Part shown: positions 287-37,907 of the stretch, piece after piece
Layout: each line of letters begins with the position of its first letter
Numbering within the stretch: position 1 is the first letter of the stretch
Virus record (IMG/VR): IMGVR_UViG_3300020057_000072
Coordinates: 1-40,884 of that record
DNA: 40,884 bases
Source: a virus
Direction: 5' to 3' (one strand)
Position numbers and translations under genes: made by a program
Notes under the pieces: generated by a model
Databases searched by the model: none
What the model saw: the letters and a program-made list of their open reading frames with translations, nothing else
Told to the model about the DNA's origin: nothing

Positions 287-290
287 ACCT

Positions 291-298
291 GCTATACT
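291..298 (+). promoter_or_regulatory. Extended -10 promoter, apparently leaderless
   Basis: TGCTATACT (TATACT at 293-298) is an extended -10 box ending 6 nt before the ATG at 305. No clear -35 box is visible. A start about 7 nt downstream would put the first RNA base at or next to the start codon, and there is no ribosome binding site. Confidence 0.5.
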
Positions 299-7108: not shown

Positions 7109-7383
7109 CACAACAAGAACTAGAAAAAAAGATGCAGGAGTTATCAGAAGAAGTCGGACAACTGAAAAGGAGAGCCTTTCAGGAACAAATAACACCTGAT
7201 ATTATTAAAATGCGTCATATTGGAGAGGGAGTAAGATATATCAGGGATGGAAAAACAGCCGACAAAGCAACGAGTGGCGAAGAACCGGCACAAGGAGCAG
7301 CGATATTTTTCGATTACAATACAAATACTCTCTACATCTGGAACAGACTAACAAAAGCATGGAAAAGCGAAGTACTAACGTGA
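7105..7383 (+). CDS. Small coiled-coil structural protein
   Basis: A 92-residue protein. Residues 1-25 form a coiled coil (LEKKMQELSEEVGQLKRR) and the C-terminal half looks beta-rich (AAIFFDYNTNTLYIWN), like small pieces of fibre proteins that display a chain end. Its ATG overlaps the end of the tail gene by 4 nt (ATGA), so it is coupled to it. A minor tail component is the likeliest role. Confidence 0.6.
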   Translation: MTQQELEKKMQELSEEVGQLKRRAFQEQITPDIIKMRHIGEGVRYIRDGKTADKATSGEEPAQGAAIFFDYNTNTLYIWNRLTKAWKSEVLT

Positions 7384-7395
7384 TAATATAATTAT

Positions 7396-12769: not shown

Positions 12770-12799
12770 TTGACTCAGCAAAAAATATGCTACTATTAT
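12770..12799 (+). promoter_or_regulatory. Promoter, leaderless type
   Basis: TTGACT (12770-12775), an 18-bp spacer and TATTAT (12794-12799). The ATG at 12803 lies just 3 nt after the -10 box, so the transcript would start at or slightly inside the start codon. It would drive the lysis cluster. Confidence 0.55.
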
Positions 12800-20780: not shown

Positions 20781-22015
20781 AGTCAAGTGACTTTGCCCGC
20801 AATCCCACCTCTTTTAAGGGTGGGTCAAGGGCAAACTTGACTATATTCATTTTTTAAGTTAAAATGCATTTTATGAGAACTTTCGAGTATAAACTCAGAC
20901 CAAACAAAACACAGGAGCAAGAGTTGGACAGGCTACTTTGGGAAACAAAGTGTCTTTACAATTCTGCTCTCGAACAGCTCATAAATCACTATAAAGAAAC
21001 AGGCAAGCATCTCAACCGCTTCACTCACGATAGGCTGTGGAACAAAGAAACTTGTCCACAGTTACCAGCGGTTTTGGTAGATACCACTATTCTCAGACTT
21101 CACCAATCATTTGCTAACTTCTTCAGAAGGTTGAAGACAGGGGGAAAGCCAGGTTTCCCAAGATTTAAGAGTATTCATAGGTGGAGTAGTTTTAGCTTTA
21201 GGGATTATAAAAGCGGTGGCCGTGTTGTTGAGGATAGGTTACATATAAACCCGAAGACAAAAGTTAAAATAATTCTGCATAGACCACTAGAAGGTACGCC
21301 CAAGTTCACCAGAGTAGTTAAACGGGTAGACGGATATTATGTTCAAGTGGTTTGCGAAATGCCAGAAATTAAAGAAAAAGAATTAGATATTAATAAAGCG
21401 GTAGGGCTTGATGTGGGACTTCGTTACTTTGTGGCAGACAGTAATGGCGAAAAACACAAAGCCCCAAAATTCTTCAGAAAATCAGAGTATAAACTAGCAA
21501 AACAACAGCGTTTTCTTGCTAAGAAACAAAAAGGGGGTGCAAACCGTGGAAAGGCAAGAAAGCTGGTCGCAAAAACACATTTAACCATAAGCCGTCAACG
21601 AAAAGACTTTATACACAAATTAGCGTTCAAGTATTCTAACGAGAACGACATTGTGTGTATGGAAAATCTCAATGTACAAGGCATGTTAAAAAATCACTGT
21701 CTCGCTAAAAGTATCAGTGATGCTTCGTGGACAATGTTTCAATCATTTGTATCGTACAAGGTGCAAAACCTCGGCAAACGATTGGTATTGGTCAACCCTG
21801 CATACACATCTCAAATCTGTTCAGAGTGTGGGGCGATTGTTAAAAAATCTCTTTCACAAAGAACTCATTTTTGTCCAGAGTGCTTGTATGTAGAAGACCG
21901 AGATGTCAACGCAGGGAAAAATATATTGCGTTTAGGGTTGGTTCAACCCTTTGGCCAGAATAGCTCATTGGAGCGTTTTATTACCCAAGAAGCCCACGGA
22001 TTTATTCGTGGGTAG
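20781..22015 (+). mobile_element. TnpB-only IS200/IS605-family element (IS1341-like)
   Basis: The left end is a three-tier hairpin: AGTCAAGT/ACTTGACT, TTTGCCC/GGGCAAA, CCCACC/GGTGGG (20781-20842). The right end hairpin is CCCACG/CGTGGG (21993-22012), inside the tnpB 3' end. GGTAG flanks the left side (20776-20780) and also ends the element (22011-22015). Removing one copy of the 1235-bp element restores an open NinG-like gene, so the borders are precise. No tnpA is present; mobility would need a transposase in trans. Confidence 0.8.
20864..22015 (+). CDS. tnpB: TnpB RNA-guided nuclease
   Basis: A 383-residue protein (a start at ATG 20873 would give MRTFEYKLRP). The RuvC triad is intact: Asp183 in GLDVGLRYF, Glu267 in MENLNVQG and Asp347 in DRDVNAGKNI. 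The zinc ribbon is intact: CSEC (319-322) and CPEC (337-340). The length is normal for the family. With an omega RNA read from the right end it should cut DNA next to a target-adjacent motif, favouring element retention. The 3' end encodes the right-end hairpin. Confidence 0.9.
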   Translation: MHFMRTFEYKLRPNKTQEQELDRLLWETKCLYNSALEQLINHYKETGKHLNRFTHDRLWNKETCPQLPAVLVDTTILRLHQSFANFFRRLKTGGKPGFPRFKSIHRWSSFSFRDYKSGGRVVEDRLHINPKTKVKIILHRPLEGTPKFTRVVKRVDGYYVQVVCEMPEIKEKELDINKAVGLDVGLRYFVADSNGEKHKAPKFFRKSEYKLAKQQRFLAKKQKGGANRGKARKLVAKTHLTISRQRKDFIHKLAFKYSNENDIVCMENLNVQGMLKNHCLAKSISDASWTMFQSFVSYKVQNLGKRLVLVNPAYTSQICSECGAIVKKSLSQRTHFCPECLYVEDRDVNAGKNILRLGLVQPFGQNSSLERFITQEAHGFIRG

Positions 22016-22431: not shown

Positions 22432-22461
22432 TTGACACGACATCACCCTATAGAGTATATT
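22432..22461 (+). promoter_or_regulatory. Promoter of the chaperonin cluster, leaderless type
   Basis: TTGACA (22432-22437), an 18-bp spacer and TATATT (22456-22461). The groES ATG is 8 nt later at 22470, so transcription should begin at or next to the start codon. The first bases TTGACACGACAT match the promoter at 18381, which suggests the same early timing. Confidence 0.65.
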
Positions 22462-22469: not shown

Positions 22470-22739
22470 ATGACACCAGCCAAGAATACAGTTATACTAA
22501 GAGCTACTAAGCTAAAAACCAAATCAGGACTGGAGTCGATAGAAACAGGCAAAAACGCTCCCGAAATCGGAGTCATAGTAAAGATAGGAACAGGGACTCC
22601 ACCAGTTAAAATCGCAGAAGGAGATACCATCGTGTACCGCAAGTACATGGAGAACAAAGTCTATATCCCAACCGAAGGGGAAGAATTGAACTTCATCGAC
22701 TTTAAAGATATAGTCGCAAACTTAGGAAAACAAAAATGA
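22470..22739 (+). CDS. groES: Co-chaperonin GroES
   Basis: An 89-residue protein with the GroES beta-barrel pattern: NTVILRATKLKTKSG, a mobile loop region (about 20-33, ESIETGKNAPEIG), GVIVKIGTG, AEGDTIVYRKYMENK and a final FIDFKDIVANL, the usual C-terminal strand and helix. It caps the GroEL ring and sets the folding chamber. GroEL is two genes downstream. The mobile loop is diverged, as expected for a protein matched to its own phage GroEL. Confidence 0.8.
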   Translation: MTPAKNTVILRATKLKTKSGLESIETGKNAPEIGVIVKIGTGTPPVKIAEGDTIVYRKYMENKVYIPTEGEELNFIDFKDIVANLGKQK

Positions 22740-22942
22740 ATAACGATACAAAATTAGAATACGTTCACAAACTACTGACAAAGGCATTTGAAACCTTGAT
22801 GGAAGAAAAGAAAGCCAAACCCTCTCGTGAAAACTCCGAAACCCTCACCTTACTGGAAACCGCAATGATGTGGAACAACAAAGACCGAGCCGTCAAAGGC
22901 GAATTAGAAAAATCCGACACTCATATCCAGCAACAGCAATGA
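22736..22942 (+). CDS. Acb2/Tad1-like cyclic-nucleotide sponge (anti-CBASS/Thoeris candidate)
   Basis: A 68-residue protein. An N-terminal helix (VHKLLTKAFETLMEEK) is followed by PSRENSETLTLLETAMMWNN. This is close to the hairpin motif of the Acb2/Tad1 group as I remember it (SRExSxxLTxLExAxMWxN). Those proteins bind cyclic di/trinucleotides or NAD-derived signals and so block CBASS or Thoeris defence. The gene overlaps groES by 4 nt (ATGA), placing anti-defence and chaperonins in one unit. A structural or binding test is lacking, so it remains a candidate. Confidence 0.55.
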   Translation: MNNDTKLEYVHKLLTKAFETLMEEKKAKPSRENSETLTLLETAMMWNNKDRAVKGELEKSDTHIQQQQ

Positions 22943-22945: not shown

Positions 22946-23016
22946 TCCCGAATCGTCTAGCGGTAGGATAGCTGACTTTGAATCAGCAGAGTGAAGTTCG
23001 AATCTTTATTCGGGAA
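22946..23016 (+). tRNA. tRNA-Gln (anticodon TTG)
   Basis: The acceptor stem TCCCGAA/TTCGGGA is perfect. The D-arm is GTC/GAT around TAGCGGTAG. The anticodon stem GCTGA/TCAGC has the loop CTTTGAA (anticodon TTG). The T-arm is TGAAG/CTTTA with TTCGAAT. The discriminator is A and no CCA is encoded. The groEL ATG begins 6 nt after the discriminator base. It reads CAA, a common codon in this genome's late genes. Confidence 0.92.
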
Positions 23017-23022
23017 CAACAA

Positions 23023-24678
23023 ATGAAAAAAATAATATTCGGAAGCGAAGCTAGGCAAAAGTTATTACAAGGAGCAGTTATCGCTTATAGAGCCGTTTGT
23101 ACTACGCTCTCACCAAAAGGACGAAACGTCGGTATTACAAGGCAATGGGGAACACCAATAGCGGTTCATGATGGCGTTACAGTTATGAGAGAAGTAGAAG
23201 ACAGGGACGAGTTTGTAAATACAGGTATTCAGTTTATTAGGGAAGCAGCACAGAAGACAAATGAGGAGGCAGGCGATGGTACGACTACGGCAACCCTTCT
23301 GGCATACCACATTATAGACAAAGGAATGAAGCTCCTCGAAAAAGGAATAAACCCCATGATCCTCAGAAAGCAAATGGACGACGCAGTCCCAGCACTAAAG
23401 GAGCAACTCAAGAAAATCAGCAAATCAATCATGGGAACAGAAGACATCCAAAGAGTAGCATTCATATCTTCCGCCGATGAAGAAATAGGAAAAGTGGTAG
23501 CACAAGCCGTCGAAAAAGTAGGCGAACACGGACTGATAACCGTTGAAGAAGGCGGAGTCGAAATGGGAATCGACTACACCGAAGGAATGGAGTTTGACAA
23601 GGGATACGCAGCTCCACATTTTGTAACAAGCCCTCAGAGAATGGAAGCAATAATCGAAGAACCACTCGTCGCAGTTTTAGGAAAGAAAGTAACTCTTGTA
23701 AAAGAAATAATGCCCTTACTAGAAGTGATGGCAGCAATCAAAAAGGATATCTTAATAGTTGGAGAAGTTGAAGGCGACGCTTTGAAAACCGTCATCGTCA
23801 ACAAAATGAAAGGGAACATCAACATATTAGTAGTAACTCCACCAAGCTACGGTGACAGGAGAACATCCTCCCTTGAAGACATCGCACTCATAACAGGAGC
23901 AACAGTGGTATCAGAAGAACTCGGACTGGACATGGTACAGTTTACCAATCAGTTCGAAAAGAAATGGCTCGGACTTGCCAAGACAGTTGTCGCCGGACGC
24001 AACTCAACCGTCATTATAAAGATGGAGGAGAAAGACACCATCAACGAAGAATGGAAAAAAGATATATTGGAACGAAACAAGAAGGTAGCAGAACGCATCG
24101 AAAATTTGAAAGCCAATCTCGAAACCGAAACCTCAGTCTACGAGAAAGAGAAAATACAAGAACGCCTAGCAAAACTAACAACAGGCGTCGCCATTATAAA
24201 AGTCGGAGCGAAAACCGAAGCATCCATGCGTGAAAGATTAGAGAGAACCAAAGACGCAGTATCAGCAGCACGAGCAGCAGCCGAGGAAGGAATAGTACCC
24301 GGAGGCGGAGTCGCATTTCAACAGATGGCATCTATATTTATGGGAACGCCAAGTAAAAAAATGATGCTGAATGATGGCGAACAATTATTATATGACGTGT
24401 TACACGAACCGACACTCAAACTGCTCGATAATGCAGGAGAAGATGAAAAACAGAAAGCTCTCATCGTTGGAAAAATCAAACAAGCAGGTGGCGATTTTGG
24501 ATACAACGTAAACACAGGCAAGATGGAGGATTTAGTAAAAGCAGGTGTTATAGACCCAGCGAAAGTGATACGATTATCTGTAGAAAACGCAGTCGCTGTC
24601 GCCGGAACAATCTTATCAACAGATTGTTTGATAGTGGACGAACGTGAGCAAACTCAGACTCAAATGCAGGTAGTATAA
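23023..24678 (+). CDS. groEL: Chaperonin GroEL
   Basis: A 551-residue protein. ATG 23023 was chosen because an earlier TTG lies inside the tRNA. ATPase features are present: Asp50 in HDGVTV, DGTTT (85-89), the KDAVSAARAA segment with an Asp at the D398 position, and PGGGVAF near residue 426. The apical domain is recognisable (PPSYGDRRTSSLEDIA, like the usual FGDRR). The C-terminal Gly-Gly-Met repeats are absent, replaced by a Gln/Thr-rich tail. It folds proteins in ATP-driven double rings with GroES, probably capsid or other phage proteins. Confidence 0.95.
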   Translation: MKKIIFGSEARQKLLQGAVIAYRAVCTTLSPKGRNVGITRQWGTPIAVHDGVTVMREVEDRDEFVNTGIQFIREAAQKTNEEAGDGTTTATLLAYHIIDKGMKLLEKGINPMILRKQMDDAVPALKEQLKKISKSIMGTEDIQRVAFISSADEEIGKVVAQAVEKVGEHGLITVEEGGVEMGIDYTEGMEFDKGYAAPHFVTSPQRMEAIIEEPLVAVLGKKVTLVKEIMPLLEVMAAIKKDILIVGEVEGDALKTVIVNKMKGNINILVVTPPSYGDRRTSSLEDIALITGATVVSEELGLDMVQFTNQFEKKWLGLAKTVVAGRNSTVIIKMEEKDTINEEWKKDILERNKKVAERIENLKANLETETSVYEKEKIQERLAKLTTGVAIIKVGAKTEASMRERLERTKDAVSAARAAAEEGIVPGGGVAFQQMASIFMGTPSKKMMLNDGEQLLYDVLHEPTLKLLDNAGEDEKQKALIVGKIKQAGGDFGYNVNTGKMEDLVKAGVIDPAKVIRLSVENAVAVAGTILSTDCLIVDEREQTQTQMQVV

Positions 24679-24752
24679 AAAATATAGGATAAGCCGGAGA
24701 ACGACGCAAAACAACTATGGGACAACTTTATTTTCAAAAATAGGAGCATATC

Positions 24753-25076
24753 ATGAGATATAAAGTATTCTTCACAACAGGCGAAAATATCGTCATTAAC
24801 GACTGGCAGTTTGACACCCTCCAGCACTCCTCAAAACTAACAGGCGACCCCATCTATATGAGACAGGGAGCAGACGACCCGACAATCATGCTTCACGTAA
24901 AATACATAACCCACATAGTCCCAGCCAACGCATACGAACAAGAAGGAGCAGTCGTCACGCCTCCATCCCCGGAATCCGTAGCCAAAGCCAAAGCAAAAGA
25001 ACAGGATAGTATTAAATCAGACCCAACTGCTATACTAAATAGAGTGAAGGAAAAACAGGAAGAAACACATGGCTAA
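24753..25076 (+). CDS. Hypothetical protein
   Basis: A 107-residue protein with a beta-rich N-terminal domain (RYKVFFTTGENIVINDWQF, later LHVKYITHIVP) and a charged Ala/Lys/Glu tail. A ribosome site (AGGAG) lies 6 nt before the ATG. An extended -10-like box (TGCTATACT, near 25030) is found inside its 3' end. Family not recognised. Confidence 0.65.
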   Translation: MRYKVFFTTGENIVINDWQFDTLQHSSKLTGDPIYMRQGADDPTIMLHVKYITHIVPANAYEQEGAVVTPPSPESVAKAKAKEQDSIKSDPTAILNRVKEKQEETHG

Positions 25077-25317
25077 CCCAACATCAACCACAACAGTAAA
25101 GACCTATGAGTACCCGACAAAAAAGTACGGAATGTTTCAGGTTATAACCCACAATGATGTCGTTGTTTTTATAGAATATAAAAGAGATGGACAAGATGAA
25201 AACGGAAATCCAACTGAAAAACACAAGTTCTCCTCAAATGATATAGACTTCGCTAAGGGCGTATTTTTAGCTTTGAAGCAAATGTTCAACGAGCTAAATA
25301 TCGATCCAAAACTATGA
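25069..25317 (+). CDS. Hypothetical protein
   Basis: An 82-residue protein overlapping the previous gene by 8 nt and the next by 4 nt (ATGA). A beta hairpin (FQVITHNDVVVFIEYKRDG) is followed by a helix (FAKGVFLALKQMFNEL). No known family. Confidence 0.6.
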   Translation: MANPTSTTTVKTYEYPTKKYGMFQVITHNDVVVFIEYKRDGQDENGNPTEKHKFSSNDIDFAKGVFLALKQMFNELNIDPKL

Positions 25318-25607
25318 CATGCCCAAGAACAGCCTGTACAAATGAAGCCATATCCGATAGCCAATATGGAGTTCTCCCTTGTAAGAATCACCAGAAAAAA
25401 GACACAGAAAAGGTAGCCAAGATAAGACGTTCTCCAGAGTTCTATACACTCAGTCAACAGGATAGATTCCAACACCAAAGAGATCGGTACGCCAAAGATA
25501 TCCTCCAACCATTCGAAGGAGCAGGCGACCCAAACCTAGAATTTGTCAAAGCATACCCTGACAAAGTAAAGGATTATTTCACGCCGGAACAACTGCGAAA
25601 ATTATGA
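25314..25607 (+). CDS. Small zinc-finger-like protein
   Basis: A 97-residue protein beginning with a CPRTAC and later LPCKNH, a Cys/His set like short zinc ribbons. The rest is helical and charged (QDRFQHQRDRYAKDIL). It is coupled by ATGA overlaps on both sides. Role unknown; nucleic-acid contact is plausible. Confidence 0.6.
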   Translation: MTCPRTACTNEAISDSQYGVLPCKNHQKKDTEKVAKIRRSPEFYTLSQQDRFQHQRDRYAKDILQPFEGAGDPNLEFVKAYPDKVKDYFTPEQLRKL

Positions 25608-25696
25608 CTTGGATATTATATTTTTTCAGGAAACCAAAGGCGGAGTGGAGTGACATCGTCCTCTGGCAGATAGCCAGACAGATAACAACAAAATGA
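25604..25696 (+). CDS. 30-residue micro-protein
   Basis: The gene shares ATGA overlaps with both neighbours, which supports real translation. The peptide is amphipathic (MTWILYFFRKPKAEW). It starts with the same 14 bases as the gene at 29147, suggesting related ends. Confidence 0.5.
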   Translation: MTWILYFFRKPKAEWSDIVLWQIARQITTK

Positions 25697-26070
25697 ACAG
25701 AGCACAAAGACGAGCTGAAGCAAAAAGAAGCGATAAACCATTCAAAGAAACACTTAAAAGTTTAGAAAAAGACGACGGTAAGCCACAAGATAGAACAATG
25801 GAGATGTGGTGCTGGAGGCATCAAACAAAATGGGAAAACGAAAAGCATCCAACCGAACGAGATAAGAAAAAAGCAGAGGAAATAAGGCTAAAACCCTTTA
25901 AAAAATACGATGAAAATGGTAAACTAATTATGGGTAGAAGATGCGGAAAGTGTGGAAACGAGGTATTAGTTTCTGAGAAACGAGCCGTCCTACATACAGG
26001 ACTCGAAGGCTCGACTGACAAACAGACCGACGAGGTCAAACCAAACTTAGACTATGGCATTAATATTTAA
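25693..26070 (+). CDS. Zinc-ribbon protein
   Basis: A 125-residue basic protein with MNRAQRRAEAKR at the start (a helical arginine-rich segment, common in phage RNA/DNA-binding proteins), a CWRH motif (about 39-42) and CGKCGNE (about 84-90). Together these could form one zinc site. The 3' end overlaps the next gene by 17 nt. Confidence 0.6.
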   Translation: MNRAQRRAEAKRSDKPFKETLKSLEKDDGKPQDRTMEMWCWRHQTKWENEKHPTERDKKKAEEIRLKPFKKYDENGKLIMGRRCGKCGNEVLVSEKRAVLHTGLEGSTDKQTDEVKPNLDYGINI

Positions 26071-26251
26071 GTGTAATACTTGCAGTAAGAGGTATGATGC
26101 ACAGATTATCTCCAGCATCATCTATATGGACGGTAACAAAAGGCTTACACTCAAAAACGAGAATGACGATTGTGAATCGTGTAGTGAGGAGATTAAAAAG
26201 GCAACAGCTCAGAAACGTACTGAGATAAAACAACAAAATGGAAACAACTAA
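26054..26251 (+). CDS. Small double-CxxC protein
   Basis: A 65-residue protein with CNTC (about 7-10) and CESC (about 40-43), a classic spacing for a zinc ribbon, then a basic Gln/Asn tail. It overlaps its neighbours on both sides. Function unknown. Confidence 0.6.
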   Translation: MALIFKCNTCSKRYDAQIISSIIYMDGNKRLTLKNENDDCESCSEEIKKATAQKRTEIKQQNGNN

Positions 26252-26345
26252 TCAAACAGGACAACTCGTACCATTAGATAAACTCATCGAGTGGGAGCAC
26301 AACCCACGCAACATAAACTCGGCGAACTTTGCAATCAGTTTCTAA
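26238..26345 (+). pseudogene. ParB-like N-terminal fragment fused out of frame to SSB
   Basis: Thirty-five residues start METTNQTGQLVPLDKLIEW and reach EHNPRNI, the opening of ParB/Srx-fold domains. At about base 26315 the similarity stops, and the DNA continues in another frame as the C-terminal half of a single-strand binding protein. A deletion joining two genes explains this better than a real short gene. Confidence 0.5.
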
Positions 26346-26500
26346 CCAAAGGCAGAAAATGTTATGTAGAAGGAAGACTCTCAACCAGAGAGTGGGAAAA
26401 AGACGGAATCAAAAAAAATAAAACAGAAGTAATAATCGACGACATGATACTATTAGATAGTAAGCAAAAAGAAAATGGACAACCAACAGAAACAACTTAA
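26291..26500 (+). pseudogene. ssb: C-terminal half of single-stranded DNA-binding protein
   Basis: From about 26315 the frame reads LGELCNQFLTKGRKCYVEG, then RLSTREWEKDG and TEVIIDDMILL, which are the last strands of the SSB OB-fold. The first half of the fold is missing and the usual acidic tip (DDDIPF-like) is absent; it ends in Glu/Gln/Thr residues. A GTG at 26291 could start it, but half an OB-fold should not bind DNA. It marks the deletion point with the ParB-like fragment. Confidence 0.65.
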
Positions 26501-26969
26501 GAAACTTGAACTAACAGACGAAGAACTCAAACTCGTAGAAAAAACAAAGTTTGATGATTTTGTAGGATTTTTCCTAGACCAAAGCAATGCATTAACTTAC
26601 GGAAACGCAACGCAATCAGCATGCCTAGCATACAACTTCGACCCAAAGAATCCAAAGGACTACGCTAAGGCGTCAGTTTACGGTCATAGAAATGTTAAGA
26701 ACGTTAAGCAGTTAGCGTCAGCATACGCCGACAGCAGGGGACACACATTCGGAAAGATGATGGATGTAGCCGTCGCCAAAATGTACGACGCAAAGAATGG
26801 CAAGGGAATAGAGTGGTGGAAAGAAATAATGATGCTAACCGGCATGAGAGAGCCAGAAGGAGCAAAGATCGTAATAAATAATAGCAACAATCAAGCCAAC
26901 GTAGATATAAACGATCCGGCAGCCATAGACTACAACAAGAAGTTCAAACAGTTTTTGATGAACGAATAA
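26475..26969 (+). CDS. Putative terminase small subunit
   Basis: A 164-residue protein. Residues about 30-95 resemble the helix-turn-helix of small terminases (YGNATQSACLAYNF, then AKASVYGHRNVKNVKQLA). A helical middle and an acidic C-terminal tail follow (INDPAAIDYNKKFKQFL). It would recognise the packaging site and hand DNA to the large subunit. It is 4.3 kb upstream of terL, separated by small genes, which is unusual but known. It lies just before a DnaA-box cluster. Confidence 0.5.
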   Translation: MDNQQKQLKKLELTDEELKLVEKTKFDDFVGFFLDQSNALTYGNATQSACLAYNFDPKNPKDYAKASVYGHRNVKNVKQLASAYADSRGHTFGKMMDVAVAKMYDAKNGKGIEWWKEIMMLTGMREPEGAKIVINNSNNQANVDINDPAAIDYNKKFKQFLMNE

Positions 26970-26970
26970 G

Positions 26971-27002
26971 TTATCCCCAGAGTTATCCCCAAATGTGGAC
27001 AA
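26971..27002 (+). other. DnaA-box-like cluster
   Basis: Two direct copies of TTATCCCCA (26971, 26983; 12 bp apart) and one inverted TGTGGACAA (26994-27002, reverse complement TTGTCCACA). Each is within one or two bases of the consensus TTATCCACA. They could bind host DnaA as a second origin or as a regulator. Confidence 0.5.
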
Positions 27003-27012
27003 CCCCAGACAA

Positions 27013-27047
27013 AAGCAAAAAACCCGACTAGGGTAAATTTAGCCGGG
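27013..27047 (-). terminator. Intrinsic terminator on the minus strand
   Basis: CCCGACTA (27023-27030) pairs with TAGCCGGG (27040-27047) apart from one A/C mismatch. On the minus strand the stem is followed by TTTTTT. The plus strand has no T-run. No minus-strand gene ends here, so it may stop antisense transcription toward the small terminase. From 27053 to 27210 I see only very short frames (about 20-25 codons) that I do not call. Confidence 0.45.
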
Positions 27048-27211
27048 CTTATGCCAAAGGGAGATAATGCGAAACAGAGCATCCGCCTCGCAAGACTCCT
27101 AAAAAACCAGTAAAGAAAACGCTACGTCAAACAGCGATGAAAGACGTAACACCTAAAAAGTATCATAAACCCCAACAGTTAGCAAGAACAGAGCAACTTA
27201 CTTCTACCGCT

Positions 27212-27240
27212 TGACTATCGAACGGCTCGATGCTATAATA
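27212..27240 (+). promoter_or_regulatory. Strong sigma-70-type promoter
   Basis: TTGACT (27212-27217), a 17-bp spacer and TATAAT (27235-27240). The next ATG is at 27251, 10 nt on, giving at most a very short leader. It drives the run of small genes that follows. Confidence 0.7.
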
Positions 27241-27250
27241 CAATAAGAAT

Positions 27251-27397
27251 ATGAAAAACAAATACATAACAGCCTGCAACACCTGCAAACAGAGCAAAAT
27301 GAAAGCAGAGATGATTCAGCAAGCAGAGGGATACAAATGCATACCCTGCAACAAGAAAAAATACGAAATAGCACACGAAGGAGGGGAAAAAACATGA
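27251..27397 (+). CDS. Small CxxC zinc protein
   Basis: A 48-residue protein with CNTC (about 9-12) and CIPC (about 30-33), zinc-ribbon spacing, then a Lys-rich end. It is the first gene after the TTGACT/TATAAT promoter and is coupled by ATGA to the next gene. Confidence 0.55.
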   Translation: MKNKYITACNTCKQSKMKAEMIQQAEGYKCIPCNKKKYEIAHEGGEKT

Positions 27398-27507
27398 TAA
27401 CTATAATCTTTCTTGTTGGAGCATTTGTCTTACACTGGTGGGGATTTAGCTGGCTCATGCTACTAATAGTATTGATAATTGATGGACTTAATTCTACTTT
27501 AACATGA
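27394..27507 (+). CDS. 37-residue membrane protein
   Basis: It is almost entirely one or two hydrophobic helices (IIFLVGAFVLHWWGF, then WLMLLIVLII). It is coupled at both ends by ATGA overlaps. Its role in the host membrane is unknown. Confidence 0.55.
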   Translation: MITIIFLVGAFVLHWWGFSWLMLLIVLIIDGLNSTLT

Positions 27508-27794
27508 AAATAACACAAGCAGAAATGATGATACGAGGCGAGTTTAACAACTGCCCCGGAGGAGACGTACTCCTAAACCATCTATACATATATAACCTAA
27601 ACGAAGTAGCACTGATAAAAGACACAGACAAGCCATACTGGAAAAACAACGAAGCAACACTGGTAATGGCGATAGATAAAAACGACGCAAAGGCAGCATT
27701 AGCCTTAGCAAAAATAGCAACCGAATACAACGCCGACGAGTTCGACTGGTTACCAACGGAAGACAAGTACGTTATAAGAATGTGGTGGGACTAA
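27504..27794 (+). CDS. Hypothetical protein
   Basis: A 96-residue protein, mixed alpha/beta, with a helix-rich middle (DKNDAKAALALAKIATEY). No motif recognised. The start overlaps the membrane-protein stop. Confidence 0.6.
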   Translation: MKITQAEMMIRGEFNNCPGGDVLLNHLYIYNLNEVALIKDTDKPYWKNNEATLVMAIDKNDAKAALALAKIATEYNADEFDWLPTEDKYVIRMWWD

Positions 27795-27796
27795 TT

Positions 27797-27985
27797 ATGG
27801 AAGAACAATACCAAATGACAGATGAAGAAGTACAGGAAGTAGCTATCTACGACGAGGAACAGGGTAGTAAGTGTCCTGAATGTGGGACGAACATGGTAGT
27901 AACCACATGGCGTAACCCATCAACCTACCAAACCGAAACAGAGGCAACATGCCCTGAGTGCGGAGGAACGGAGACAACCCTATGA
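27797..27985 (+). CDS. Zinc-ribbon protein with two CPECG knuckles
   Basis: A 62-residue protein: an acidic start, then CPECGTNM (about 26-33) and CPECGGTE (about 53-60), a clear four-cysteine zinc ribbon. It is a probable nucleic-acid or protein adaptor. ATG 27797 was chosen over an upstream GTG that overlaps the previous gene. Confidence 0.65.
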   Translation: MEEQYQMTDEEVQEVAIYDEEQGSKCPECGTNMVVTTWRNPSTYQTETEATCPECGGTETTL

Positions 27986-28033
27986 TTGAAGCAATATATA
28001 GTAGGCGGAAATAGCCTACCTAGCAAACAAAGA

Positions 28034-28204
28034 ATGAGCAAAAAACAGTACGGCAAGATAAAAGAACGCCTCGAACTTGGAGAGATAATGATAAACCTAG
28101 CAGGCGGATTCATGAAAGCACCCAAGCGCTGGACAACCGAGTACCAACGGTTAGCAGAGCAGGCGCTCATGTACGAAATAGAAAATAACCTATTACCCTT
28201 ATGA
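28034..28204 (+). CDS. Small helical protein
   Basis: A 56-residue basic helical protein (KKQYGKIKERLELGEIMINL). ATG 28034 was chosen; an upstream TTG (27986) would extend it. A tiny frame, ATG 27982 to TAG 28014, overlaps the start and may be a coupling peptide. Its stop overlaps the next ATG. Confidence 0.5.
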   Translation: MSKKQYGKIKERLELGEIMINLAGGFMKAPKRWTTEYQRLAEQALMYEIENNLLPL

Positions 28205-28503
28205 ATAAACGAGACGAAATCATACATAAGCACTTTTCCAAGATGGCACACAAAAGCGTCGAATCCCGACGTGCCTCAATGGGAGCCGAAGGACTAAAAG
28301 CCCAGATGATAGAGCTGTCCCGGAGAGCAGTCGAAGCAAGACAGAGAAACCGCCAGATTAGAGCCTTAGTTGTGGACTTAGATACTCCCGAAAACAACTG
28401 CAAGATATGCGGAGCAAGTCATAAGGAAATCAACGACAACAATAAGGTAACCTATGCCAAAGTACACCAGAAGTACCTAGTAAAGCTGGTGAAGAAGCCA
28501 TGA
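28201..28503 (+). CDS. Basic helical protein with C-terminal cysteine pair
   Basis: A 100-residue protein whose first 60 residues form long basic helices (ELSRRAVEARQRNRQIR). CKICGASH (about 67-74) looks like half a zinc site. Nucleic-acid binding is likely from the charge pattern only. Confidence 0.6.
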   Translation: MNKRDEIIHKHFSKMAHKSVESRRASMGAEGLKAQMIELSRRAVEARQRNRQIRALVVDLDTPENNCKICGASHKEINDNNKVTYAKVHQKYLVKLVKKP

Positions 28504-28513
28504 AAAAAGAATT

Positions 28514-28912
28514 ATGAAATGTACACATATAACAGGAGTAACAAAAGAAGCTAGACAAATTATTAACAGACGGGGAGAAATAACCTTTACTTATATGAAA
28601 GACTACACAGAAAAAAGATTAGAGTCTAAAAAACGCCTAGAAACAATAGTTGGTGGTTATTGTTATGCACAAGACGGTGGAAATGGTGGTTATGAGTTTA
28701 GTGATATTGTTAAGCATATTGACGAATCAATCCACCAAGCAGTAGCAGAAGAGAGGAAGTGGATTCTTGATGGGTTGCCAGAGAAGAAATACTTTGGAAA
28801 AGATTATATCGAAGGTAGCAATAGTGATTCTAATTATGTGCATGGCTACAACCAAGCACTAGACGATCTCCTCGCCTCCCTAGACAAACCATTAAAAGTT
28901 GATGAAGAATAA
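28514..28912 (+). CDS. Hypothetical protein
   Basis: A 132-residue protein with no recognised domain. Its DNA from 28514 on is richer in T and uses more GGT/GAT codons than upstream genes, and it contains a 22-bp repeat (28579-28600) found again at 29101. Probably a later acquisition. Confidence 0.55.
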   Translation: MKCTHITGVTKEARQIINRRGEITFTYMKDYTEKRLESKKRLETIVGGYCYAQDGGNGGYEFSDIVKHIDESIHQAVAEERKWILDGLPEKKYFGKDYIEGSNSDSNYVHGYNQALDDLLASLDKPLKVDEE

Positions 28913-28913
28913 T

Positions 28914-29105
28914 ATGAAAAACGAAGAGAGAAGAGAGCACGAAGTTTTTAATAAGAAAAGAGTGTCTATTAGAAAAATGAATAAAGCACTAATTGAAAAA
29001 TGGAGAGCTGAAGAAAGACCGTGGTGGATGTTTTGGTCACACACAATATCTTTCGAGGAAAAGAGAGATATCATTATTAGAAATTGGGAGTCTATTAAGG
29101 AATAA
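28914..29105 (+). CDS. Small charged protein
   Basis: A 63-residue, highly charged, Trp-rich protein (WRAEERPWWMFWSH). ATG 28914 was chosen as the start. No family recognised. It is followed by copied fragments at 29101-29143. Confidence 0.5.
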   Translation: MKNEERREHEVFNKKRVSIRKMNKALIEKWRAEERPWWMFWSHTISFEEKRDIIIRNWESIKE

Positions 29106-29134
29106 CCTTTACTTATATGAAAAAACTAACTAAA
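29101..29134 (+). repeat. Patchwork of two short copied segments
   Basis: Bases 29101-29122 repeat 28579-28600 exactly (22 bp). Bases 29117-29134 repeat 29340-29357, the first 18 bases of the gene there. The pieces overlap, so this spot looks like a duplicated gene start left behind by recombination. Confidence 0.7.
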
Positions 29135-29146
29135 AAGGACTAACCT

Positions 29147-29356
29147 ATGACTTGGATATTCCATCAGCTAAAACGACTCCAATACTTCTTAAAGCACGGG
29201 AGGGATGATTATGGCAAACTTGGTTTTACTGAGCTTAGGTATAAGGGGAAAAGGTTAGTTTCAAAAGGTATTGTTCCTCATCATGAAATATGGACAGTTG
29301 ATAAAAACGGCAAGATCATTAAAATAGAAAGGATTAACTATGAAAAAACTAACTAA
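29147..29356 (+). CDS. Hypothetical protein
   Basis: A 69-residue basic protein (FHQLKRLQYFLKHGRD, then beta strands with KNGKIIKIERI). It shares its first bases with the micro-gene at 25604 and overlaps the next gene by 17 nt. Confidence 0.5.
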   Translation: MTWIFHQLKRLQYFLKHGRDDYGKLGFTELRYKGKRLVSKGIVPHHEIWTVDKNGKIIKIERINYEKTN

Positions 29357-29534
29357 ACAAGAACAAAAATTAGAGGCACTGGAAGCCTACGAAGCAATAA
29401 TAGACCCAGCATATGAAGCAATGAAACGCCCACAACGGGAAGCATTTGAAGCAATAGCAGTACCAGCATGGAAAGCCTTTCTAGCAAAGTGCAAAGAGAT
29501 AGACGAACAGGGAGGAGGAGAAGATGAAGCTTAA
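29340..29534 (+). CDS. Small helical repeat-like protein
   Basis: A 64-residue protein made of three similar helical turns built around EAYEAI, PAYEAM and EAIAVPAWKAF, ending in an acidic Gly/Glu tail. Proteins with EAxxPAxxA repeats occur in phages and gut microbes without known role. Confidence 0.55.
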   Translation: MKKLTKQEQKLEALEAYEAIIDPAYEAMKRPQREAFEAIAVPAWKAFLAKCKEIDEQGGGEDEA

Positions 29535-29634
29535 TATAGACGGTAAAATAATGGATTTAGTTCAATGTGAAAAGTGCAGTGCTATGAAATTAGAGGGCAA
29601 GCAGTGTTCTTGTGAGAAAGAACAAGATGAATAA
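29524..29634 (+). CDS. 36-residue zinc-finger micro-protein
   Basis: CEKC (about 15-18) and CSC (about 28-30) lie within 16 residues, a possible minimal zinc site. It overlaps both neighbours and has a GGAGGAGGAG ribosome site just before the ATG. Confidence 0.5.
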   Translation: MKLNIDGKIMDLVQCEKCSAMKLEGKQCSCEKEQDE

Positions 29635-29944
29635 CTTAATAGCTGAGAGTATCAAGAGATTCAACGATTTAGCCAGAAAGGAAATAAAGCACTATGACAA
29701 TATGTGTGATAGAGGAGATTTTTGCATATGCTTACAGGATGTGCAGGCTGATTTTCTCAAGCAAGAACTCACCTCTATAGCAGAAAAGACTAGGGAGGAC
29801 ACAGAACAAAACATAAAGAAAGCATTTCTCACATATTTGTTTGAAAATAGGATAGAGGATGATCTTAAGGGAAGATTTGCGTCTTCACAATATGACTTGA
29901 TTTGGAAAAAGATTGTGAATTTATCAGACAAGGAGAGTAAATGA
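29627..29944 (+). CDS. Helical hypothetical protein
   Basis: A 105-residue, mostly helical and charged protein (KRFNDLARKEIKHYDN). ATG 29627 was chosen at the overlap with the micro-protein stop. No motif recognised. Confidence 0.55.
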   Translation: MNNLIAESIKRFNDLARKEIKHYDNMCDRGDFCICLQDVQADFLKQELTSIAEKTREDTEQNIKKAFLTYLFENRIEDDLKGRFASSQYDLIWKKIVNLSDKESK

Positions 29945-30006
29945 TCACTACATTTCACTACTTCATCAATAAACGATGAGCGAGAAGTCTGGTAGAATAA
30001 CAGTAA

Positions 30007-30450
30007 ATGTGCATCCATCAGGCGAAAGACCCGACAAAATGCAAACGGTGTAAAAAGAAGAAGACAAAGTATGTTAGTAAACCAACACAGCCAAAGAAGA
30101 AGCAACCTAAAAGACGATATCCACAGACGGAACGGCGACGCTTTGATCTTAACCCAACCAGCCGGAAGCACGAAACAACAATAGCCATGCTGATTCTTAA
30201 TTGCACTTGTCAGTTTAAAACTCACGCACTCGAATACGACGAGAAGACCGAGGCGTACCTAAAAGACCTGATCGCCCGCAACGGACTCCACAGAAAGGTT
30301 ACCGTTGAAGGTGGCAAATCTTACAAAGTTCCTGTAGCATTTATGCTAGCCCATACAATGCTCGCCGAAAACATGGACACCTACGGCTTTGATGAGTGGG
30401 AAGACCCGAAACCAGATATTGACATGACGAATGGCAAGGCGGTACAGTAG
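30007..30450 (+). CDS. Basic protein with CxxC and folded C-terminal domain
   Basis: A 147-residue protein. CKRC (about 12-15) lies in a very basic stretch up to residue 60. Residues 60-147 are acidic and folded-looking (YDEKTEAYLKDLIARNGLH). An internal ATG near residue 61 (MLILNCTC) could give a shorter form. Family unknown. Confidence 0.5.
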   Translation: MCIHQAKDPTKCKRCKKKKTKYVSKPTQPKKKQPKRRYPQTERRRFDLNPTSRKHETTIAMLILNCTCQFKTHALEYDEKTEAYLKDLIARNGLHRKVTVEGGKSYKVPVAFMLAHTMLAENMDTYGFDEWEDPKPDIDMTNGKAVQ

Positions 30451-30477
30451 ATTCATGACCCGAAGGGAGGTGAACCA

Positions 30478-30672
30478 ATGGAATTACACAAACCAAAAAG
30501 AAAACTAAAACTAACAAGCCTCTTCTTCACAATAGGACTTTTTCTCATGATGATTAACTTCCTTATGGACATAACAAACATATTCTCCAACTTCCAACCA
30601 CACACGGTGGGAGCATCAGCAACCGCACTTCTCCTAAGCATCGTCGCACAACTCGGCGACAACACAGCATAG
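30478..30672 (+). CDS. Small membrane protein
   Basis: A 64-residue protein with a basic start and two hydrophobic helices (LFFTIGLFLMMINFLM, then ATALLLSIVAQL). It has one of the best ribosome sites in the window (AGGGAGGTGA, 5 nt before ATG). The role is unknown; a second holin-like or superinfection-exclusion protein is possible. Confidence 0.55.
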   Translation: MELHKPKRKLKLTSLFFTIGLFLMMINFLMDITNIFSNFQPHTVGASATALLLSIVAQLGDNTA

Positions 30673-30704
30673 CAACAACACTCCCAAAGCAGTACAATAG
30701 AAGC

Positions 30705-30767
30705 ATGGGAAGTGGATTCTTGCTTTTATCAGCAGGTGGTTTTCTTAACATACGAGTAGGAGCATAA
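30705..30767 (+). CDS. 20-residue hydrophobic micro-ORF
   Basis: A short Gly/Leu-rich peptide (GFLLLSAGGFLNIRVGA) with no clear ribosome site. Listed because nothing else occupies the spot; it may not be translated. Confidence 0.25.
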   Translation: MGSGFLLLSAGGFLNIRVGA

Positions 30768-30784
30768 CGTGGTAAAATAAAGGT

Positions 30785-30875
30785 ATGTACGGATATATGT
30801 TATTTATTGCCTCACGATGTCGTGCCAGAGTTAAAAATATGGTATGATTAATAGCGAAGAATGACGCCCGTACAT
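30785..30875 (+). promoter_or_regulatory. Long-range inverted repeat upstream of the tRNA and terminase
   Basis: ATGTACGG (30785-30792) pairs with CCGTACAT (30868-30875). A second small stem, CACGA/TCGTG, lies within. TATGAT near 30843 is a possible -10 box. The unit lies just before the tRNA and the terminase genes, so it could be a regulatory structure or part of a packaging site. No gene is visible in 30768-30877. Confidence 0.4.
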
Positions 30876-30877
30876 TT

Positions 30878-30952
30878 GCAAGATTAGTGTAACGGCAACT
30901 CAACACGATTCACATCCGTGGATAGTTTCAGGTTCGACTCCTGAATCTTGCT
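30878..30952 (+). tRNA. tRNA, anticodon read as CAC (Val)
   Basis: The acceptor stem GCAAGAT/ATCTTGC and the T-arm TCAGG/CCTGA with TTCGACT are perfect. The D-stem has one mismatch. The anticodon stem CACGA/CCGTG has one A/C mismatch at the loop side, leaving TTCACAT and anticodon CAC. The mismatches make the identity less sure. The discriminator is T and no CCA is encoded. The next gene starts exactly 6 nt after it, as with tRNA-Gln and groEL. Confidence 0.75.
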
Positions 30953-30958
30953 CAAAAT

Positions 30959-31231
30959 ATGAAATCAATACCAATAAGACAGTTTCAAAGGAACTTCTAC
31001 AAAGAGCTGAAAGGCGTACCATTTATAGTGACCAGGCAAGATCCGCACACAAGAGAAGACAACCCGGAGTACATCGTTACCGCCTACGACGAAAGGACAG
31101 CCAATCAAACACCAGAACAGCAGCACCCACTAGTAGAAGTAAAAGAAACTGAACCATCACAAGGTAGCGTAGCACAAGTGGCAGATGGGAATCGACAGCG
31201 AAGTATGATAGACAAGATATTCGGAAAATGA
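30959..31231 (+). CDS. Phd/YefM-like or packaging accessory protein
   Basis: A 90-residue protein. Residues 1-45 (SIPIRQFQRNFYKELKGVPF, then EYIVTAYDE) recall the Phd/YefM DNA-binding antitoxin fold, which begins with a strand and an RxFxxN-type helix. The second half is polar and probably disordered. No toxin gene is beside it. It is directly before terL, so a packaging or DNA-binding role is at least as likely. It has no ribosome site and begins 6 nt behind a tRNA. Confidence 0.45.
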   Translation: MKSIPIRQFQRNFYKELKGVPFIVTRQDPHTREDNPEYIVTAYDERTANQTPEQQHPLVEVKETEPSQGSVAQVADGNRQRSMIDKIFGK

Positions 31232-31232
31232 A

Positions 31233-32867
31233 ATGGACTTACAAACCGCCCAGACATTCAACGCAGCAGCTTTTGTGTTACAAAACAAAATCGTAAATGA
31301 AAACGGCATCCCGATCACCTTCAAAAGACACAAGTTTCTCGTCGACTTCTACATGGATAACAGTCCACGACTCGTGGCAAAGAAATGCGGACAGATCGGC
31401 TTCTCAACAGCAGCCATTATCAGGAGCTTCCATCTTGCGAACTACGTCGGGGCAAACGTCATTTATACACTCCCGTCGAAACCGATTATTAAAGACTTCG
31501 TCACGCCGAAAGTAAACCCACTAATATCAAGCAATCCCATCTTTGGCGAAATGGTAGGCGACGTCGACTCAACAGGACTGAAAAAGATAGGCGACAGATT
31601 CGTATATTTTAGGTCAAGCTGGGACGAGGCGTCAGGTATCTCTATTTCAGCTCACATACTAATAAACGACGAGCTAGACCGAAGCAATCAGAAAGCAGTA
31701 AGGACTTACAAGACCAGACTAGACGCCGCAGCATTAGACCGCCCCGATTTAGGATGGTGGTGGAAGTTTTCAAATCCATCAATCCCTGGATACGGCGTTG
31801 ATGAAGACTGGCAGATAAGCGACCAAAAACACTGGATGATCAAATGCGAACACTGCAACTTCTGGCAATACCTAAAGTTTCCAGAAAACATAAACTTCAA
31901 AACCGCAGAATACGTCTGCCAGAAATGCGAGAGGCACATAAGCGATGACACACGGATAGACGGCAAGTGGGTAAAGAAATATCTGGGACGAAACATCTCA
32001 GGATACTGGATCAACCAACTAATGGCAGCATGGATACCAGCAAGCAAGATTATAGAAGACTCACAAGGCGACCAAAGCGTCTTCTACAACTTTACACTAG
32101 GAGAAGCTCACCTAAATAAAGACTTTGTAGTAACCAGAGAAAGCATAGTCAAATGCCTCTACCCCACCATAAATCCCCGAACGGACGTGGCAATAGGAGT
32201 AGATAACGGCATAGTAAAACACTACGTCGTAGGAAATAAATACGGAATCTTCATGATAGGACAAACCGAAGACTGGCAGTTTATAGAAAACCTCAGAAAC
32301 AGATTTGACGCAGTAATGGTCATAGACGCCAACCCATACCCAACACCAGCAAAGAAGCTCGTAGAAAAATACAGAGGAAAGGTATTCATGCATTACTACG
32401 AAGAAGACAGGAAGCAAGTAGGCATTATAAGATTCGGCGAAACACAAAACGACTACGGAATAGTAAAGACCGACAGAACGAAGATAATAGACGCAGTAGT
32501 AGCAGACATAAACGCCCAAGACTTACTGTTCAACTTCTCACTAACAGACCTCGAAAACCTCCAATATCCACAACACTGGGAAAACATGTACCGAAGCGTC
32601 GCCGAATCAGAGAAGGGTATAAAAAAAGCCGTCTGGATAACGCCGGAAGGCAGACCCGACCATTACGCTCACGCAACAGTCTTAATGAGAGCAGCACAAA
32701 CAAAGGTACTAACCTCAGCAGGCGTCGTAAAACCAAACGCACCCGGCAACCGCTACCCAGATACTATTATAGTAAACTCAGATAACACGGCAGCACCGCC
32801 GATATCCCTCGATCAAATAAAAGAATCCATTCAAAGACCCAAGAGTAAAGGCTGGGAGTACAGATGA
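31233..32867 (+). CDS. terL: Terminase large subunit (zinc-finger GpA-like)
   Basis: A 544-residue protein. The ATPase part has the Q/S-type Walker A CGQIGFSTA (about 52-60) and Walker B HILINDELD (141-149). A four-cysteine finger lies at C205, C208, C229 and C232. The nuclease domain has Asp324 (AIGVDNG), Asp365 (VMVIDANP) and a DHYAHA motif near the end. It packages DNA into the prohead through the portal and cuts it. The finger and motifs resemble the lambda GpA-type group. Confidence 0.85.
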   Translation: MDLQTAQTFNAAAFVLQNKIVNENGIPITFKRHKFLVDFYMDNSPRLVAKKCGQIGFSTAAIIRSFHLANYVGANVIYTLPSKPIIKDFVTPKVNPLISSNPIFGEMVGDVDSTGLKKIGDRFVYFRSSWDEASGISISAHILINDELDRSNQKAVRTYKTRLDAAALDRPDLGWWWKFSNPSIPGYGVDEDWQISDQKHWMIKCEHCNFWQYLKFPENINFKTAEYVCQKCERHISDDTRIDGKWVKKYLGRNISGYWINQLMAAWIPASKIIEDSQGDQSVFYNFTLGEAHLNKDFVVTRESIVKCLYPTINPRTDVAIGVDNGIVKHYVVGNKYGIFMIGQTEDWQFIENLRNRFDAVMVIDANPYPTPAKKLVEKYRGKVFMHYYEEDRKQVGIIRFGETQNDYGIVKTDRTKIIDAVVADINAQDLLFNFSLTDLENLQYPQHWENMYRSVAESEKGIKKAVWITPEGRPDHYAHATVLMRAAQTKVLTSAGVVKPNAPGNRYPDTIIVNSDNTAAPPISLDQIKESIQRPKSKGWEYR

Positions 32868-32912
32868 TACTTGTACAAAGCCCATCTTTTATGCCAAACT
32901 GAAAGTAATACT

Positions 32913-33188
32913 ATGAACGACACTATCCCAAATGGTTTCCACCGTACACAAGATTGGAAAGACACCCACACCCAAAACGCACTGCAAAAGCAAGTCTTTA
33001 CCATTTACCTAAGTAAACAAAAAACGCCAACGGTCATGAACTGGCGATGCCACAACTGCGGAAGTTTAGTTTTTCAATACTACAACCTCCCAAACGCCAT
33101 CTTTGACGGAGCAATGAACATCGTCGACTGCGAACAGCCGACAGATCACCTCTGCAAAAAATGCAATATTATATTCAGAGTAACCTAA
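32913..33188 (+). CDS. Zinc-ribbon protein between terminase and portal
   Basis: A 91-residue protein with CHNCG (about 46-50) and CKKC (about 80-83), a four-cysteine ribbon split by a beta-like insert. ATG 32913 was chosen over an earlier TTG. Small zinc proteins between terL and portal occur in other phages; the function is unknown. Confidence 0.6.
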   Translation: MNDTIPNGFHRTQDWKDTHTQNALQKQVFTIYLSKQKTPTVMNWRCHNCGSLVFQYYNLPNAIFDGAMNIVDCEQPTDHLCKKCNIIFRVT

Positions 33189-33189
33189 T

Positions 33190-35286: not shown

Positions 35287-35303
35287 AGGGAGGTGAACAA
35301 AAT

Positions 35304-35546
35304 ATGAGCGTTAAAAACGTAGTAACAGGAGTCACATTAGGAGTAGCAGTCGTATCATTAGCACTAAGCGTACTCGCTTTCCAGTTAGCAGGACAGGAGA
35401 GAGTGGTGATACAGCAAGTCCCAGTAGCTGAGAAGGTGACACCATCGCCAGCAATAACAGCAAGCCCAAGTGCATCAGTCGCACCGACGAAGAAAGTATT
35501 CGTCCCGGTGAAAACAGCAGCACCAAGTGTAGCACCGACGAACTAA
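35304..35546 (+). CDS. Single-span membrane protein
   Basis: An 80-residue protein with a hydrophobic helix (about 5-29, VVTGVTLGVAVVSLALSVLA) and a Pro/Ser/Ala/Thr-rich tail with two APTKKV/VAPT blocks. ATG 35304 was chosen because AGGGAGGTGA precedes it at good spacing. The topology resembles signal-anchor or spanin-like lysis proteins, but it has no lipobox. Confidence 0.55.
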   Translation: MSVKNVVTGVTLGVAVVSLALSVLAFQLAGQERVVIQQVPVAEKVTPSPAITASPSASVAPTKKVFVPVKTAAPSVAPTN

Positions 35547-35582
35547 GGGATTAGCAACTGATCAAACAATAAGGCATAAAAA

Positions 35583-35689
35583 AAGCAGGGGAAATGATTT
35601 TCTCATAGCCTGCTTATTTTGCGTCGATAAATCGACATTGAGTGGGAAAAGCCACTCGATAAATAAAGTTCCTAAGTCATACTAGGAAC
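35583..35689 (+). ncRNA. Four-hairpin array in the portal-capsid gap
   Basis: Four consecutive stems are visible: AAGCAGG/CCTGCTT (35583-35615), followed by ATTTT; GTCGA/TCGAC (35623-35636); ATTGAGTGG/CCACTCGAT (35637-35660, one wobble); and GTTCCTA/TAGGAAC (35668-35689). The first could end transcription; the next three lack T-runs. Between 35547 and 35870 there is no gene, so this is a dedicated structured RNA or a set of protein-binding sites. Confidence 0.6.
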
Positions 35690-35772
35690 ACTATATATAG
35701 AGCAGGTAAAAACAAACCCCGGAAAAGTGTAGGAGAAATGTAAGAAAATAAAATCAGCCTCAACATTCCCTA

Positions 35773-35858
35773 TTGACAGCGACATTTCTTTTACTGTACA
35801 GTATTTACAGAGGTCAATAAGAACCCGACACAGCACTAGCTGGGGTCGGCTTTTTTTT
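35773..35858 (+). terminator. Capsid-gene promoter, conserved leader and terminator
   Basis: TTGACA (35773-35778), an 18-bp spacer and TACAGT (35797-35802). The -10 box lies in the perfect palindrome TACTGTACAGTA (35792-35803). Six nt later comes AGAGGTCAA, then a strong hairpin: CCGAC/GTCGG with inner CAGC/GCTG (35825-35849), followed by C and eight T residues. The capsid ATG is at 35871. A terminator inside the leader of the most strongly expressed gene suggests controlled read-through. Confidence 0.7.
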
Positions 35859-35870
35859 GCTTAAAACACT

Positions 35871-36938: not shown

Positions 36939-36947
36939 AAAAATAAT

Positions 36948-37667
36948 ATGTTTACAGGAACAATACAATTACACGACGCAACAGACGTACTAACACCAAG
37001 TACAATCCAACAGCATGATCTCGGAGCACGAGGCATAGCCAAAGATGGTAGAAAGTTTCGATATTTGAAAATCGGAGCAACAGCGATAACAAACGCAGGA
37101 CTCACACTTCAAGCACCTGCTATCGTTCCTAATCATCAAAACGTCGCAGCTGAAGCAGCAGCAGCATTAGGAGCATTCGTAGCAACATTAACTCTCGGAG
37201 CAACAGCAGCAACAGCAAATCAATATGCCGAAGGCTTCCTCGTTATAAACGACGTAACAGGAGAAGGACACACCTACAGAATCAAATCCCACGCAGCAGT
37301 CGCATCATCAGGGGTTATGACAGTGAGGTTATATGATCCAATCAAAGTCGCCCTGACAACTTCTAGCGAAGCATGCTTAATTGCAAACCCATACAACGGA
37401 GCAGTTGTTTTCCCAACGACAGCAACAGGTATGTTCGTCGGAGTAGCACCTTACGCAATCCCAGCAAGCAACTTCGCATGGGTACAAACATACGGAGTCT
37501 GCTCACTCTTAGCAGCCGGAACAATCGGAGTAGGTCTAGGAATAGCAGTACCGGGAGCAGTTGCAGGAGCAGGAACAGTAATGGCAGCAACCCTCGCTCA
37601 AATCGGACACGCACTGCAAGCAGCAGTAGACACCGAATATAGAGCAGTTTTCCTAAATAGCGACTAA
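36948..37667 (+). CDS. Capsid decoration-type protein
   Basis: A 239-residue, beta-rich, Ala/Thr/Gly-rich protein with few charges (GFLVINDVTGEGHTYRIKSH is its most structured part). It lies 9 nt after the capsid gene and is probably co-expressed. Such proteins often cement the shell from outside. The assignment rests on position and composition. Confidence 0.55.
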   Translation: MFTGTIQLHDATDVLTPSTIQQHDLGARGIAKDGRKFRYLKIGATAITNAGLTLQAPAIVPNHQNVAAEAAAALGAFVATLTLGATAATANQYAEGFLVINDVTGEGHTYRIKSHAAVASSGVMTVRLYDPIKVALTTSSEACLIANPYNGAVVFPTTATGMFVGVAPYAIPASNFAWVQTYGVCSLLAAGTIGVGLGIAVPGAVAGAGTVMAATLAQIGHALQAAVDTEYRAVFLNSD

Positions 37668-37671
37668 GGAT

Positions 37672-37830: not shown

Positions 37831-37854
37831 CAAGAAGAAAGTAGCATAGCCGAC

Positions 37855-37900: not shown

Positions 37901-37907
37901 ACCTAAT

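Follow-up and report, generated by a model that had tools for sequence, protein, structure and literature searches.

The phage window, by which we mean the whole 40,884-nt stretch of DNA analysed here, contains exactly two tRNA genes recognised by ARAGORN, a tRNA-Gln(UUG) and a tRNA-Val(CAC)-like gene, and each lies upstream of a protein-coding gene on the same strand (Table 1). An original prediction made from the sequence had placed both discriminators 6 nt before a start codon, and the coordinates proved correct in the sequence and by ARAGORN and Rfam, for tRNA-Gln (discriminator at 23016, groEL ATG at 23023) as well as for the second tRNA (discriminator at 30952, ATG at 30959; Rfam by local scan). 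Both tRNAs score above the RF00005 gathering score of 29. The tRNA-Val-like gene is absent from whole-window Rfam scans and was matched by Rfam in the local scan only, which makes it the weaker of the two, and with one mismatch each in the D stem and the anticodon stem, a long variable loop and a U discriminator it may be a drifting tRNA. CCA is not encoded at the 3' end of either gene. The arrangement of a tRNA upstream of a same-strand protein gene holds for both tRNAs, one of them irregular, and tRNA-bounded genes amount to 2 of about 50 in the window.

Table 1. Features of the two tRNA loci and leaderless promoters in the window.
Feature	Position	Strand	Evidence or remark
Extended -10 TGCTATACT	290..298	+	6 nt before ATG 305; putative leaderless promoter
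Extended -10 TGATAATAT	7381..7389	+	6 nt before ATG 7396; putative leaderless promoter
Extended -10 TGCTACTAT	12788..12796	+	6 nt before ATG 12803; putative leaderless promoter
Promoter-like TTGACA-18-TATATT	22432..22461	+	11/12 consensus matches; predicted start ~2 nt before groES ATG
groES-like gene (Cpn10)	22470..22739	+	PF00166, E 6.2e-9
Small ORF	22736..22942	+	4-nt overlap with groES; stop codon 3 nt before tRNA-Gln
tRNA-Gln(UUG)	22946..23016	+	ARAGORN; RF00005, 57.4 bits; discriminator A at 23016
6-nt linker CAACAA	23017..23022	+	Sequence; predicted groEL leader after RNase Z cutting
groEL-like gene, 551 aa	23023..24678	+	PF00118, E 8.8e-46; start aligns with relatives
Extended -10 TGGTATGAT	30840..30848	+	Putative promoter; predicted start near 30855, ~22 nt before tRNA-Val
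tRNA-Val(CAC)-like gene	30878..30952	+	ARAGORN; RF00005, 37.9 bits (local scan); discriminator T at 30952
6-nt linker CAAAAT	30953..30958	+	Sequence; predicted gene 30959 leader after RNase Z cutting
Small gene, 90 aa, family unassigned	30959..31231	+	Directly before terminase; N-terminus homologue in L157/L181
Terminase large subunit	31233..32867	+	PF05876, E 4.8e-16; phrog_675, E 6.5e-92; 1 nt after preceding stop

Genes and start signals at the two tRNA loci

The TTGACA-18-TATATT element is, to judge from its match to consensus, the probable promoter of a groES-ORF-tRNA-groEL unit. The small ORF of this unit weakly resembles the Acb2/Tad1 hairpin domain (PF24729, E 1.3e-4, below the curated cut-off), Acb2/Tad1 being anti-CBASS/Thoeris sponge proteins, and a TnpB/OrfB-like IS605 protein is encoded directly upstream of the groES region (20864-22015). 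The groEL start is backed by homology, as its M1 aligns with the GroEL M1 of two relatives. Most relatives couple groEL to the preceding gene or provide it with a Shine-Dalgarno (SD) sequence; here tRNA-Gln interrupts the link to the preceding gene, with no recognisable signal in its place.

The start of gene 30959 is likewise backed by homology and aligns from M1 with the small gene in L157 and L181; the gene product has no Pfam or PHROG match. No promoter-like match was found between the tRNA and the downstream gene, and several relatives start the terminase gene from a leaderless promoter of its own. Further upstream (30770-30847), an extended -10, TGGTAAAAT, stands 6 nt before the ATG (30785) of a 20-codon ORF, the stop of which overlaps the next extended -10 (30840-30848).

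At groEL and gene 30959 alike, no SD reaches -6 kcal/mol and no upstream stop is coupled to the start. The expectation that both genes lack a ribosome site was borne out for gene 30959, where anti-SD pairing is +0.4 kcal/mol, and very nearly so for groEL, where it is -4.3 kcal/mol and involves a weak GGGA inside the tRNA-Gln acceptor stem. A -10 element concealed in the tRNA 3' ends was considered and rejected, as none lies 5-8 nt before either ATG, these ends included. Of the 52 phage ORFs classified, 25 are coupled to a near upstream stop; an SD is the sole signal of 7, and a -10 element 5-8 nt ahead of the ATG that of 4. The remaining 16 show no signal by the rules applied, this last class including several doubtful ORFs and three (617, 2613 and the capsid gene) that share a special leader. 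SD-less starts are common in this phage, so the absence of an SD is not peculiar to groEL and gene 30959. The 5' regions that cutting at the tRNA 3' ends would release are weakly structured by prediction.

Leaderless promoters and the capsid leader in the phage family

Across 11 contigs (the window and 10 related), the configuration TGNTANNNT-N6-ATG occurs 29 times at a gap of 6 nt versus 0-8 times at any other gap, and in the window an extended -10 TGNTANNNT stands exactly 6 nt before the ATG at 305, 7396, 12803 and 30785 (the 20-codon ORF). With this spacing, the A of the ATG should be the first transcribed base. Counting 6 or 7 nt on from the -10 likewise leads to the first A of an AGAG leader before the capsid gene, which supports the start assignment. 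The leaderless promoters that had been claimed elsewhere in the phage are genuine and shared across the family, and predicted leaderless transcription is what this phage family conserves. These promoters provide a concrete rule for calling gene starts in the family, and the reliance on them is a clue to its host; a host search in genome contigs by tRNA-Gln pattern and capsid alignment returned no match. In the transcriptome study of Romero et al. an mRNA counted as leaderless when its leader was shorter than 10 nt (PMC4681348), and 70S ribosomes bind an AUG located at the 5' end or close to it, both positions being acceptable in leaderless initiation (PMC9031893). Given that the family uses leaderless promoters, the inferred host should be well able to use an mRNA on which RNase Z leaves a leader of 6 nt.

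The leader before the capsid gene is a conserved RNA element (35809-35870) that recurs ahead of gene 2613 (2562-2612) and, partially, ahead of gene 617 (592-616). Leaders of the capsid type are found in 16 relatives (L135, L136, L011, L137, L142-L145, L013 and L147-L153), with AGAG at the presumed transcript start followed by a 3-nt stem, a terminator-like hairpin with a U run and the capsid ATG, mostly without an adjacent SD. The two sides of the stem, 4-8 nt apart, covary (GGU:ACC, GAC:GUC, GUC:GAC, GGC:GCC), with perfect complementarity in 16 of 17 leaders versus a mean of 7.4 and a maximum of 13 in 5000 shuffles. An Rfam scan of the window matched no family to this leader at E<=1; it is possibly an attenuator or antitermination leader.

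Distribution of the tRNA-start arrangement

Relatives were found via capsid, terminase and GroEL. A tRNA lies upstream of groEL in 0 of the 12 loci read and upstream of the terminase gene in 0 of the 9 relatives whose records extend there, an absence that holds for the loci read rather than for whole genomes, many of the records being fragments; for 4 of the 9 terminase loci (L155, L156, L160 and L161) the evidence consists of a tRNA scan and sequence reads. Among the capsid relatives only L148 carries a tRNA, a tRNA-His that lies just upstream of the terminase gene in antisense orientation, with no start codon near its 3' end. At this locus (L148:3605-3720) tRNA-His and terminase are divergent, with overlapping -10 elements, one strand carrying TATAAT-6 nt-ATG and the opposite strand TGGTACTAT. 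No relative has either tRNA at the loci read, and so none offers a 6-nt gap for comparison. The suggestion that punctuation by tRNAs is a strategy of this phage and its kin finds no support on these counts, and from the sequences compared the tRNA-start arrangement looks like a one-off that is not conserved, rather than a general system. In a near-identical contig, L010 (99.3%), the region around tRNA-Val is unchanged. L010 spans window positions 29229-39300 and then 553-2809, so that the window ends adjoin, which indicates an almost complete phage genome that is either circular or circularly permuted.

In a survey of 120 viral contigs, an ATG-started ORF of at least 60 aa begins within 10 nt after the tRNA for at most 17 of 670 tRNAs, an upper bound only, since the sample was picked for an ATG near a tRNA. 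Candidate tRNA-abutting starts include L033 (tRNA-Lys, gap 3, dCMP-deaminase-like ORF) and L122 (tRNA-Thr, gap 1), and most of the tRNA-abutting ORFs in this pattern-picked sample match no family. In a set of 120 contigs selected for a leaderless promoter, no ORF begins closer than 12 nt after a tRNA, and several of the post-tRNA genes have a leaderless promoter of their own or an SD; most of these contigs have only one such promoter, so some of them are chance matches. Tight tRNA-ATG spacing also occurs in other viral contigs, though uncommonly, and contigs with leaderless promoters do not as a rule show it. The part of the literature that we covered contains no account of tRNA punctuation in phages.

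A possible origin of near-leaderless mRNAs in tRNA maturation

We hypothesize, with moderate confidence, that maturation of these CCA-less tRNAs leaves near-leaderless groEL and 30959-terminase mRNAs, and that the arrangement is a lineage-specific insertion and not a conserved strategy. RNase Z cuts precisely after the discriminator of tRNAs that lack an encoded CCA, as is well established, and published work agrees. A tRNA-Gln would have been inserted inside, and a tRNA-Val at the head of, protein operons of a leaderless-tolerant phage; RNase P would cut the tRNA 5' end and RNase Z after the discriminator, severing the precursor, and cuts at 23016/23017 and 30952/30953 would release groEL and 30959-terminase mRNAs with 6-nt leaders, which a leaderless-competent host would then translate in leaderless mode. 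SD-independent initiation would make such an insertion tolerable and perhaps useful.

Several observations count for this account: the two tRNAs and their spacing; the sharp 6-nt peak of leaderless promoters in the family; the homology-supported starts with no SD, -10 element or coupling at either; the promoter-like element upstream of tRNA-Val with none between the tRNA and the gene; the weak structure of the released 5' regions; and the coupling or SD of groEL in relatives, a link severed here by tRNA-Gln without a substitute. Against it stand the absence of both tRNAs from relatives, the irregular tRNA-Val and the SD-less starts that this phage has without any tRNA. The proposal that tRNA cutting yields leaders of about 6 nt is supported insofar as no other recognisable start signal is present and a leader of this length falls in the class below 10 nt (PMC4681348); RNase Z cutting at the discriminators and translation from the 6-nt leaders are what we infer from the sequence.

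A plainer explanation is that the host initiates without an SD at A-rich, open AUGs on uncut RNA, with the tRNAs upstream by happenstance and their cutting either irrelevant to groEL and gene 30959 or in competition with them. Other uncoupled SD-less starts have no tRNA, for example that at 25693, where AACAACAAAATG resembles the groEL context AACAACAAATG, and groEL of contig L313 is preceded ~25 nt upstream by an extended -10, with no clear SD. If functional, the tRNAs must nonetheless be excised, so that at least some RNA with a 6-nt leader would form, and we regard initiation on uncut RNA as somewhat unlikely, with about half the weight given to tRNA maturation. For groEL, the GGGA of tRNA-Gln might instead act as a weak SD on an unprocessed or misfolded precursor, making tRNA folding and groEL translation mutually exclusive. 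The spacing of the duplex is workable, and the unconstrained fold of 120 nt is not a cloverleaf (-25 versus -19.3 kcal/mol with the cloverleaf forced), but this fold is not clearly better than those of shuffles (z -1.1), the pairing is weak and gene 30959 has no equivalent, leaving this explanation highly improbable.

The equal 6-nt spacing could also be meaningless, the two tRNAs having been inserted in tight gaps of a compact genome. The tRNA-Gln gap is mostly forced by packing, with a 71-nt tRNA in an 80-nt space and just 9 nt to spare; there are two cases only, neither of them conserved, and sporadic tight cases occur in unrelated viral contigs. The tRNA-Val, on the other hand, had a 286-nt gap to sit in yet ends 6 nt short of the ATG (P(gap<=6) = 0.033 under uniform placement), and tightness between tRNA and ATG is rare in both viral-contig surveys. 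Two examples noticed post hoc cannot carry a statistical claim; on balance we judge coincidence unlikely.

A stronger form of the tRNA-maturation proposal, in which mitochondrial-style tRNA punctuation in a bacterial virus drives expression of groEL and the terminase operon and suits a host with leaderless initiation, is more doubtful, and we advance it only tentatively. A mitochondria-like reading is plausible for groEL and gene 30959 and does not extend to the phage family as a whole. If the cutting is real, phage tRNA genes would gain a second role, that of making mRNA 5' ends in SD-independent hosts.

Among known systems, leaderless genes with a -10 element adjoining the ORF occur in mycobacteria and in Deinococcus-Thermus (PMC12340547). 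The TGNTANNNT-N6-ATG promoters of the phage family similarly put the predicted transcript start on the ATG; unlike them, the two tRNA sites have no -10 element, and their 5' ends would come from RNA cutting that leaves 6 nt. The E. coli MazF toxin makes mRNAs leaderless after transcription, according to work cited in PMC3848588. As in MazF-processed mRNAs described there, the start-proximal 5' end in the phage would arise post-transcriptionally, although the presumed cutters would be tRNA-maturation enzymes rather than a toxin. As would be the case in the phage, tRNA and mRNA share one precursor in bacterial operons with tRNA genes ahead of protein genes, for example the E. coli tRNA-tufB operon. 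There, unlike in the phage, the tRNA is separated from the protein gene by a much longer distance, and the gene is served by a ribosome site of its own. In mitochondrial tRNA punctuation by RNase P and RNase Z most genes are tRNA-bounded, whereas the phage has two sites only, absent in relatives and with cleavage predicted, and its other genes use leaderless promoters, SDs or coupling; the two systems are nevertheless alike in that tRNAs lie directly before protein genes, in the phage on a presumed long transcript, and that their excision would place mRNA 5' ends beside start codons.
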